Below, piece by piece: positions 33,653 through 50,528 of a stretch of 64,000 nucleotides of DNA; the first letter of the stretch is position 1; each line of letters opens with the position of its first letter. The stretch comes from Firmicutes bacterium ADurb.Bin153 (GTDB lineage Bacteria; Bacillota; DTU025; MWDF01): positions 1 to 64,000 of the forward strand of contig MWDF01000001.1 of NCBI GenBank assembly GCA_002070415.1. The letters are read 5' to 3'. The translations under genes and the position numbers were made by a program. The notes below the pieces were generated by a model. That model was given only the letters and a program-made list of their open reading frames with translations. It was not told the origin of the DNA and did no database searches.

Positions 33653-36076
33653 TTAACCTACGACTATGTTCACCATCTTGTCCTGTATTATTATCGTCCT
33701 CTTTATCGATTTCCCTTCTATCGACGAAGCGACCTTATCGCTGGCCATGGCTGCCTTCAGCAGCGTATCCTGGTCCGATCCTGCCGCCACCTTGATTACG
33801 TCCTTGAGCTTTCCGTTCACCTGCACCGGCACTTCGATCTCGTCTTCCTTAGCCTTCTCGGGGTCGAAGACGGGCCACGGCTCACGCGCCAACCCTTTCT
33901 TGTGCCCCCTTGCCTCATACAGCTCCTCCGCTATGTGGGGGGCGAACGGCGCCATCAGCTTCACGAACGCGTCCCAATGAGAAGGTTCGATCCGCTCTTT
34001 CTTGCCGAACCAGTTGGCAAGGCTCATGAGCTGGGCCAGGGCGGTGTTGTACTTCATCTCCTCTATGTCTTCGCCGACTTTCTTTATCGTCTGGTGAACC
34101 AGCCTGTCCCCGTCTTGCTGGCCGTCGCCGTTCGACGGCATGACCTTGTACTGGAGGTCCCAAACCCTGTAAAGGAACCTCTGCATACCTACCAGGCCCT
34201 GCGTAGACCACGGTATCGGCTGGTCGAACGCTCCCATGAAAAGCTCGAACAACCTGAACGAATCAGCACCGCACCTGTCCACCATCTCGTCCGGGTTTAT
34301 TACGTTACCCCTGGACTTCGACATCTTCTCGTTGTCCTCGCCCAGCACCAGCCCATGCGACGTCCTTTTGCTATAGGGCTCCGGCGTCGGCACGATGCCT
34401 ATGTCATAGAGAAACTTGTACCAGAACCTGGAGTAAAGCAGATGAAGCGTGGTGTGCTCCATGCCGCCGTTGTACCAGTCGACCGGCATCCAGTATTCGA
34501 GCGCCTCCTTGGAGGCAAGCTCCTTATTGTTCTTGGGGTCCGCATACCTTAGGAAATACCAGGACGATCCGGCCCAGTTGGGCATGGTGTCCGTTTCCCT
34601 AGTCGCAGGTCCACCACAGCACGGGCAGGTCGTATTCACCCAGTCCCTCATCTGCGCGAGCGGGGATTCTCCGGTCTCTGTGGTCTGGTACCTTTCTACC
34701 TCAGGCAGTCTCAACGGGAGCTGCTCATCGGGTACGGGCACCCAACCGCACTTCTCGCACTCGACCATGGGTATGGGTTCGCCCCAGTACCTCTGCCTGG
34801 AGAACACCCAGTCCCTCAGCTTGTAGTTCACCTTCTGCTTGCCGATGCCGCGTCCTTCCAGGGATTTGGTCATAGCAAGTATCGCATCTTGCACGTTGAG
34901 CCCGTTGAGGAAGCCCGAATTGATCATCGTGCCGGTCTCGGTGGACGTATGCGGGCCGTTGTTCATGTCGCCACCGGATATCACCTCGACGACCGGGATC
35001 CCGAAGTTCTTCGCGAACCTCCAGTCCCTGTCGTCGTGCCCGGGTACGGCCATGATCGCGCCTGTCCCGTACGATGCCAGTACATAGTCGGAAGTCCATA
35101 TGGGGATGTTACCGCCAGTCGCGGGGTTTACGCAGTAGACTCCCTTGATTTGGCATCCGGATACTTCCTTGGCCACCTCGGTGCGTTCGAAGTCGGACTT
35201 CTTCGCAGCGGCGTCGCAGTAGGCCTTGACCTCGCCAGGATTTTCGCACATCCCCAGGAACCTTGCCAGATACGGATGCTCCGGGGATACGACCATGTAA
35301 GTGGCGCCGAACATCGTGTCAGGCCTTGTTGTGAACACTTTCAGGCTCATCGCCCCGTCCGTCCCGGCCACCTCGAAGTCAACCTCGGCGCCGACGGACT
35401 TGCCGATCCAGTTGACCTGCTGCATCTTTATCTTGTTCCAGAAATCCACCGTATCGAGGTCGTTCAGGAGCCTCTCGGCATATTCCGTGATCTTGAGCAT
35501 CCATTGCTTCTTTACTTTACGGACCACGGTCCCGCCGCACCTTTCGCATACGCCGCCCACGACTTCTTCGTTGGCAAGGCCTATCTTGCAGCTCGTGCAC
35601 CAGTTTATCGGTATCTCGGCTTTATAGGCGAGGCCCTTTTCCCATAGCCTCAGGAATATCCATTGCGTCCATCTGTAATACTCGGGGTCCGTGGTGTCCA
35701 CCTCACGGTCCCAATCGAAACTGAAGCCAAGCCTCTTCAGCTGGCTGCGGTACCTTGCGATGTTGCGTTTCGTGACCACCGCGGGGTGTTCCCCTGTCTT
35801 TATCGCATGGTTTTCGGTCGGAAGTCCGAAGGCGTCCCAGCCGATGGGATACAGCACGTTATATCCTTGCATGCGGCGTTTCCTTGCTAGAGTATCCAGT
35901 GCCGTATAAGAGCGCGGATGCCCGACATGCAGGCCCGCTCCCGACGGATACGGGAACTCTATCAGCACGTAGTACTTCGGTAGCGTATAGTCGTCGACCG
36001 CAGCGAAGCACTTGGTCTCCTCCCATCTGCGTTGCCATTTCCCCTCGATCGATTTGAAATCGTACTTCTCGGCCAA
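33653..36076 (-). CDS. leuS: Leucyl-tRNA synthetase
   Basis: This class I synthetase charges tRNA-Leu. The HIGH-like motif is HVGHPRSYT, the KMSKS loop EKMSKSRGN, and a CP1 editing domain (TTRPDTMFGATY, LASYGTGAIMAVPGHDDRDW in part) is present. It has about 807 residues. The start is best placed at TTG 36076 with GGAGGG six bases upstream, because an in-frame TTG at 36082 abuts the Shine-Dalgarno. It is controlled by the T-box leader at 36097-36420. Confidence 0.96.
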   Translation of the reverse strand: MAEKYDFKSIEGKWQRRWEETKCFAAVDDYTLPKYYVLIEFPYPSGAGLHVGHPRSYTALDTLARKRRMQGYNVLYPIGWDAFGLPTENHAIKTGEHPAVVTKRNIARYRSQLKRLGFSFDWDREVDTTDPEYYRWTQWIFLRLWEKGLAYKAEIPINWCTSCKIGLANEEVVGGVCERCGGTVVRKVKKQWMLKITEYAERLLNDLDTVDFWNKIKMQQVNWIGKSVGAEVDFEVAGTDGAMSLKVFTTRPDTMFGATYMVVSPEHPYLARFLGMCENPGEVKAYCDAAAKKSDFERTEVAKEVSGCQIKGVYCVNPATGGNIPIWTSDYVLASYGTGAIMAVPGHDDRDWRFAKNFGIPVVEVISGGDMNNGPHTSTETGTMINSGFLNGLNVQDAILAMTKSLEGRGIGKQKVNYKLRDWVFSRQRYWGEPIPMVECEKCGWVPVPDEQLPLRLPEVERYQTTETGESPLAQMRDWVNTTCPCCGGPATRETDTMPNWAGSSWYFLRYADPKNNKELASKEALEYWMPVDWYNGGMEHTTLHLLYSRFWYKFLYDIGIVPTPEPYSKRTSHGLVLGEDNEKMSKSRGNVINPDEMVDRCGADSFRLFELFMGAFDQPIPWSTQGLVGMQRFLYRVWDLQYKVMPSNGDGQQDGDRLVHQTIKKVGEDIEEMKYNTALAQLMSLANWFGKKERIEPSHWDAFVKLMAPFAPHIAEELYEARGHKKGLAREPWPVFDPEKAKEDEIEVPVQVNGKLKDVIKVAAGSDQDTLLKAAMASDKVASSIEGKSIKRTIIIQDKMVNIVVG

Positions 36077-36096
36077 TTCCAACCCTCCTCGAATCT

Positions 36097-36127
36097 AAAA
36101 AACGCCCCTGGCACTAGGCCAGGGGCG
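36097..36127 (-). terminator. T-box-controlled intrinsic terminator of leuS
   Basis: The stem CGCCCCTGGC/GCCAGGGGCG with a 5-base loop is followed by six Ts. It forms when uncharged tRNA-Leu is scarce and ends transcription before leuS. Confidence 0.92.
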
Positions 36128-36164
36128 AAAGTACGCGGTACCACCCTGTTCACGGTGCTATAAT

Positions 36165-36240
36165 TGGTGGAGCTGAGGGGGATCGAACCCCTGACCTCCT
36201 GAATGCCATTCAGGCGCTCTCCCAGCTGAGCTACAACCCC
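36165..36240 (-). tRNA. tRNA-Ala (GGC anticodon), nested in the leuS T-box leader
   Basis: The 76-base cloverleaf is complete: acceptor GGGGTTG with CAGCTCC including the G3-U70 alanine identity pair, D stem GCTC/GAGC, anticodon stem CCTGA/TCAGG with loop ATGGCAT (GGC), T stem AGGGG/CCCCT with TTCGATC, and an encoded CCA. No promoter is seen between the specifier domain and the gene, so it is transcribed with the leader. It is flanked by GTGCT on the 5' side and AGCAC on the 3' side, the two strands of T-box stem III. Confidence 0.96.
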
Positions 36241-36425
36241 ACATAAGCACGGTCTCGTCGCCCTTAACGCAGGGCAGCGTCCCTGCCTACTTCGTTCAGC
36301 AGGACCACTCGCGGGCGAGTCTCGGCCCAACCGTCGGCCATTCACACCTAACATGGCCTCTCTTTGGCGGTTTTATCACCGATGCTCCCGGTCATCGCGT
36401 TGGTATTTTAATGTCAACAGAGAGA

Positions 36426-36455
36426 ATTATACTAATGCCTTTGCCGTCCCGTCAA
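36426..36455 (-). promoter_or_regulatory. Promoter of the T-box / tRNA-Ala / leuS transcript
   Basis: The -35 box TTGACG (36450-36455) and a perfect -10 box TATAAT (36426-36431) are 18 bases apart. The transcript would begin close to 36420, just before stem I. Confidence 0.75.
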
Positions 36456-50443: not shown

Positions 50444-50528
50444 TGGTGCGGGAAGTGGGACTTGAACCCACACGGAGTAATCCATACGCCCCTCAAACGT
50501 ACGCGTCTGCCAGTTCCGCCATTCCCGC
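50444..50528 (-). tRNA. tRNA-Leu (GAG anticodon)
   Basis: This 85-base class II tRNA has acceptor GCGGGAA pairing TTCCCGC, anticodon stem TACGT/GCGTA with loop TTGAGGG (GAG), a long variable arm, T loop GGTTCAAGTCC and an encoded CCA with discriminator A. It reads CUC/CUU and is the tRNA that the CUC specifier of the leuS T-box should sense. Confidence 0.95.

Follow-up and report, generated by a model that had tools for sequence, protein, structure and literature searches.

The window, a 64,000-nucleotide stretch of contig MWDF01000001.1 of Firmicutes bacterium ADurb.Bin153, carries on its minus strand the leucine--tRNA ligase gene leuS (33653-36082; from the list of open reading frames; TIGR00396, 983 bits), whose start is likelier to be the TTG at 36076-36074, since in a sister genome (L128) the upstream TTG reads TTAG and the frame is closed there. 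Preceding leuS on the same strand is a leucine T-box leader, which cmscan aligns with RF00230 at 36118-36404 over model positions 1-219 (86.7 bits, E 1.5e-19). The alignment accommodates the apical AGAGAG and GGTG segments, the specifier, the linker, stem III and the T-box bulge, and the specifier codon, CTC (36317-36319), encodes leucine, which fits the regulated gene. The T-box sequence itself (AGGGTGGTACCGCG, 36134-36147) forms the 5′ part of the antiterminator, and the conserved T-box sequence AGGGTGGNACCGCG is matched exactly at 36147-36134. The intrinsic terminator (CGCCCCTGG...CCAGGGGCG-TTTTTT, 36097-36127) lies between the T-box sequence and leuS. When the helices are drawn on the sequence, the antiterminator (AGGG-UGGUACC-GCG ... 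CGC-CCCU) and the terminator are mutually exclusive, both containing the segment CGCCCCU (CGCCCCT in the DNA). Direct inspection of the minus strand thus located every T-box part where the first-pass annotation, made from the sequence alone, had put it. Elsewhere in the window are a tRNA-Leu(GAG) gene (50444-50528), whose anticodon matches the CTC specifier, and, between 40035 and 43914, two open reading frames with cysteine motifs that by eye resemble radical-SAM proteins and flank a short one resembling a LuxR-type regulator, an arrangement that may represent a peptide-modification cluster.

The key feature of this leader is a single large insertion of 84 nucleotides in the RF00230 alignment, falling exactly at the loop of stem III and consisting of a tRNA gene and its short flanks. 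Both ARAGORN and Rfam (62.8 bits) call a full tRNA-Ala(GGC) gene at 36165-36240 (minus strand), as had been proposed; it has an encoded CCA end and a G3:U70 pair. The two strands of stem III, ACCGTGCT (36246-36253) on the 5′ side and AGCACCGT (36152-36159) on the 3′ side, pair around the tRNA with one C.C mismatch; the pairing of GTGCT with AGCAC reported earlier is therefore upheld, while the helix extends beyond the five base pairs then assigned to it. The first-pass annotation had made its interpretation depend on the covariance model placing stem I upstream of the tRNA, and this is where the model places it. The T-box was found with a permissive threshold, its score lying below the Rfam gathering score of 93, which is a curation cut-off rather than a structural feature, so that a default Rfam scan misses it; the lower score is presumably caused by the insert. 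Energy folding, which disregards tRNA tertiary structure, modification and co-transcriptional order, is uninformative for the leader as a whole (z -1.48), and for the window segment the fold of lowest energy (-68.3 kcal/mol) differs from the nested cloverleaf fold (-51.0 kcal/mol with the terminator).

To assess the distribution of this arrangement, we searched 84,980 species genomes (T-loop GTTCGA; hits are the matches listed), samples of the phylum of the window (399 genomes, also with a second T-loop, GTTCAA) and a sample of the Sphaerobacter phylum for a tRNA T-loop with a T-box close behind it, and applied ARAGORN to the matched loci. The nesting recurs in at least 79 distinct leaders from Bacillota and Chloroflexota/Thermomicrobiota. 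In all 79 leaders listed, the tRNA, which lies 10-72 nucleotides upstream of the T-box, is tRNA-Ala(GGC), a uniformity that excludes chance nesting; ten further loci from the GTTCAA scan likewise contain tRNA-Ala(GGC), and no other tRNA occupies the stem III position among the checked matches listed for the species genomes (GTTCGA) and the 399 genomes (GTTCAA). Within the phylum of the window, at least 70 of the 399 sampled genomes carry the nesting, a figure composed of 53 from the first phylum scan and 12 from the GTTCAA scan, in which the tRNA ends in the matched letters, together with five carriers that the patterns missed (G004, G006, G007, G008 and G038). Upon re-scanning, nested relatives give full-length RF00230 matches (1-219) of 53-142 bits, seven of them (L201, L196, L152, L274, L253, L329 and L136; 96-142 bits) above the gathering score. 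The specifier is of the CTC type in 75 of the 79 leaders. In the genome of the window, none of the eight other T-box matches (E up to 10) holds a nested tRNA.

Downstream of the nested leader, leuS is found in 72 of the 79 cases. Of the seven remaining loci, L087 and L132 end early, three (L175, L176 and L179) have a gene resembling fatty-acid-CoA ligases next after the nested leucine T-box, and the downstream genes of the last two (L177 and L178) were left out of the gene check. A similar ligase-like gene stands between the nested leader and leuS in Desulfofundulus thermosubterraneus DSM 16057 (L065), a cultured carrier. The best NCBIfam match of the gene in L175 and L176 is PRK12583, and a link of the ligase-like gene to the use of leucine or branched-chain acids is possible. 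At one of the early-ending loci (L132, genome G003), the sequence after the T-box terminator, GTGAAAGTCCCGAGC..., is similar to the start of a group II intron, at the place where leuS would be expected. At a further locus (L006, G000 C14:40635-41475), a T-box leader begins about 90 nucleotides after a cluster of six tRNA genes and perhaps shares its transcript.

The nested tRNA-Ala looks functional by its sequence features. A G3:U70 pair, which is the alanine identity pair, an A at the discriminator position and a fully paired acceptor stem (7/7) are present in 79/79 nested tRNAs. The residue at position -1 of the RNase P site is U in 62 of the 79 leaders, and the 3′ flank is rich in A and U (79%), features that are suggestive of a fit with tRNA processing. 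No second tRNA-Ala(GGC) gene was found in the ten genomes examined, of which G019, G026, G058 and G109 are single contigs, the genome of the window itself being 89% complete; in the latter, the search also turned up an alanine tRNA of the CGC type, with a partial match at the end of a contig. The nested gene appears to be the sole tRNA of the GGC type in the cell. In five Chloroflexota loci (L328, L329, L333, L341 and L344), the same leuS leader is preceded, at a greater distance, by a second alanine tRNA gene (CGC).

The position of the promoter is similarly consistent among these loci. In the window, a consensus-like promoter with a TTGACG -35 element (36450-36455) and a TATAAT -10 element (36426-36431), separated by an 18-nucleotide spacer, lies before stem I at 36455-36426 on the minus strand, so placed that transcription would be expected to start near 36419. 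A scan of the 79 nested leaders puts the best sigma-70-like site, often a 12/12 match to consensus, with its end 145-275 nucleotides before the tRNA, a position ahead of stem I, in 74 of them, and in nearly all of the 79 there is no promoter as good between stem I and the tRNA. Among the exceptions, one leader (L164) has apparently lost stem I; its promoter, a perfect one, lies 64 nucleotides before the tRNA and is followed by stem III, tRNA-Ala, the T-box and leuS, an arrangement that may represent a stage of decay. Three Chloroflexota leaders (L328, L333 and L336) contain an extended -10-like element, TGcTAnaAT, about 40 nucleotides before the tRNA, at which a second start may occur; the others are a few weak sites. 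The claim that the leader is transcribed through the tRNA is thus supported by the sequence, and no consensus-like internal promoter, which would have given the tRNA an expression of its own, was seen in the lineage of the window.

Stem III itself is preserved around the insert. Across 51 non-redundant leaders, its two strands pair in cis with a mean energy of -12.06 kcal/mol, as compared with -8.65 kcal/mol for permuted partners, and none of 20,000 permutations gave a value as low; since each permutation uses every strand once, base composition cannot explain this pairing. T-boxes possess a discriminator motif of the form RRRxG-stem III-AA, as given in a T-box review (PMC7583486). The flanks in most nested leaders appear to follow this rule, although the helix finder used to delimit them maximises pairing and its pair counts do not constitute an independent test. 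AA stands directly 3′ of stem III in 52 of the 79 leaders, and the window has GAG-stem III-GAA, lacking the exact G. At a locus where the same gene slot is devoid of the tRNA (L300), stem III is ordinary and short (GGCAUUCUGCC). At another (L338), it holds a short hairpin, GGGCCTG/CAGGTCC, whose sequence suggests what is left of a tRNA-Ala acceptor stem after decay, the other arms being gone.

Similar comparisons bear on the history of the arrangement. In a LeuS tree built with FastTree, the nested state is clustered, requiring at least 16 changes against a mean of 38 for shuffled labels, and is intermixed with T-box-only and T-box-free states; some labels in this tree are wrong, for L076 is scored as T-box-only owing to the truncation of its locus, and L347 falls between the two T-box patterns applied. 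The nested state may have had one origin followed by many losses, or it may have spread by transfer. In two Chloroflexota loci (L321 and L332), tRNA-Ala(GGC) precedes leuS without a T-box, and in a third locus (L344) both alanine tRNAs precede an ordinary T-box leader, with the GGC tRNA just upstream of it. The link between tRNA-Ala(GGC) and leuS therefore looks old. The LeuS of the genus of the window is closest to T-box-free LeuS from other families (G050 and G023), at about 64% identity, against about 48% to that of its order mates, while the leader is of the common nested kind. By these sequence comparisons, this genus seems to have exchanged its leuS coding sequence and kept the leader.

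Taken together, these features suggest that the nested leader is probably a leucine T-box of the transcription-terminating type which at the same time forms a tRNA transcription unit. The order of its parts, their conservation, the sole GGC copy found, the pairing of stem III and the position of the promoter can all be read directly from the sequences. From these we infer co-transcription in vivo, folding, processing and antitermination, as follows. RNA polymerase would start at the sigma-70 promoter just before stem I and transcribe in turn the sensor (stem I, the CTC specifier and the stem II region), the 5′ strand of stem III, tRNA-Ala(GGC), the 3′ strand of that stem and finally the antiterminator/terminator. 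Once folded, tRNA-Ala would constitute the apical part of stem III and, because its acceptor stem joins the stem III strands and their flanking purines, the discriminator could still read uncharged tRNA-Leu. With charged tRNA-Leu, or none, transcription would terminate, leaving an RNA of about 320 nucleotides able to yield tRNA-Ala, an expectation of the first-pass annotation with which the order of the parts agrees. With uncharged tRNA-Leu, polymerase would read through into leuS, and the same transcript would also yield tRNA-Ala. The presence of the tRNA in both transcripts would make its supply independent of leucine while leuS stays under leucine control. RNase P and 3′ processing would later remove the sensor, leaving a leuS mRNA that begins near the T-box.

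Other readings of the same leaders differ mainly in what the tRNA and the switch would do for one another. Conceivably, there is no functional link in either direction, and the tRNA borrows the leuS promoter and terminator from within a stem III that tolerates inserts; we would put this at somewhat below an even chance. Insertions in every T-box domain are documented in the T-box review (PMC7583486), and such independence is in keeping with the T-box that retains a decayed tRNA (L338), with the one that has none (L300), and with the tRNA-Ala genes upstream of T-box-free leuS (L321 and L332). It accords less well with the finding that, across two phyla, neither the identity nor the position of the tRNA varies and stem III persists on both sides of it. 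That constancy, however, points to one ancient origin followed by strong retention rather than to a regulatory link. At the opposite pole, cleavage of the nested tRNA by RNase P and at its 3′ end could take part in the control of leuS, either by competing with antitermination, if the sensor is removed ahead of the decision, or by determining where the induced leuS mRNA begins and how stable it is. In every nested case the tRNA lies between the sensor and the antiterminator, so that processing necessarily separates the two. The suggestion in the first-pass annotation that the timing of processing would matter is plausible. Nevertheless, maturation of tRNAs is generally regarded as slower than the co-transcriptional termination decision, and the need for the tRNA alone can explain its conservation. 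A precedent exists in the thrS and thrZ T-box leaders, which are cut upstream of the terminator, a cleavage reported to be important for thrS induction (PMC3997798, PMC3542257). On balance, such coupling is possible, although we consider it rather unlikely. A stronger form, in which maturation of tRNA-Ala is a second input to leuS, the uncut tRNA holding stem III closed and its cutting destroying the sensor and committing or stabilising the leuS transcript, seems to us doubtful. If it were true, leuS output would integrate the charging of leucine tRNA with the capacity for tRNA processing, and production of the GGC alanine tRNA would depend on the leuS promoter.

Two further readings would change the identity of the parts. 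The tRNA might be driven by an internal promoter of its own, with the upstream T-box parts left as vestiges. The leader without stem I (L164) and the extended -10-like elements of L328, L333 and L336 would suit this reading, which is nonetheless very improbable given that the best promoter precedes stem I in 74/79 leaders, including that of the window, and that full-length RF00230 matches have been kept. Alternatively, the T-box might sense the nested tRNA-Ala itself as its ligand, either in cis or once the tRNA has been released. Pairing between the ACCA end of this tRNA and the UGGU of the T-box would be feasible, yet that end is not free within the transcript, and the specifiers are of the CTC type (75/79) whereas the anticodon is GGC; this candidate was rejected, and we give it almost no credence.

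The reading of the leader as a leucine switch that also delivers tRNA-Ala describes an RNA in which, as judged from its sequence, the defining parts of a T-box and those of a tRNA gene are both present. A term search covering the review, a database paper and a 2008 survey on T-boxes, as far as their searched text extends (PMC7583486, PMC7778990, PMC2494555), and the wider literature found no tRNA nested in a T-box, in agreement with the first-pass annotation, which knew of none; the search was limited, and an earlier mention is possible in other surveys (doi 10.1261/rna.819308, 10.1128/MMBR.00026-08). A T-box with a nested tRNA is thus new within the literature searched, apparently old, and widespread. 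With the tRNA embedded in the leuS switch, one transcript would serve as both mRNA switch and tRNA precursor, and the supply of what is apparently the only tRNA of its type is tied to an unrelated synthetase operon. More generally, a complete gene for a different RNA can take the place of the tip of a riboswitch hairpin and persist there in more than one phylum. T-boxes of this kind can escape default scans, as illustrated by the window example, which scores below the curated threshold. The arrangement also offers a natural system in which to study the timing of tRNA processing relative to the transcription-termination decision.

The nested leader resembles several known systems in part. With the leuS-type transcriptional T-box (RF00230) it shares stem I, the CTC specifier, the linker, stem III, the T-box bulge and the mutually exclusive antiterminator and terminator, differing in that its stem III loop consists of a complete tRNA gene specific for a different amino acid. 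In tRNA-mRNA operons such as E. coli thrU-tufB, one primary transcript likewise gives rise to tRNA and mRNA, which are separated by tRNA processing; the tRNAs of thrU-tufB, unlike the nested tRNA-Ala, stand before the mRNA and outside any regulatory RNA structure. The predicted removal of the sensor resembles the cleavage of the B. subtilis thrS/thrZ leader by RNase J/Y, which also occurs upstream of the terminator and leaves an mRNA with a structured 5′ end (PMC3997798, PMC3542257). There, an mRNA decay nuclease cuts an unstructured site, whereas RNase P and 3′ tRNA processing would be expected to act on the nested leader. Finally, in Alphaproteobacteria, a tRNA-Sec gene is predicted to be nested in selB, with a possible regulatory link (PMC8124441). 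Like the nested tRNA-Ala, it is a tRNA gene within another functional gene, the host being the selB coding sequence in the one case and a riboswitch in the other.
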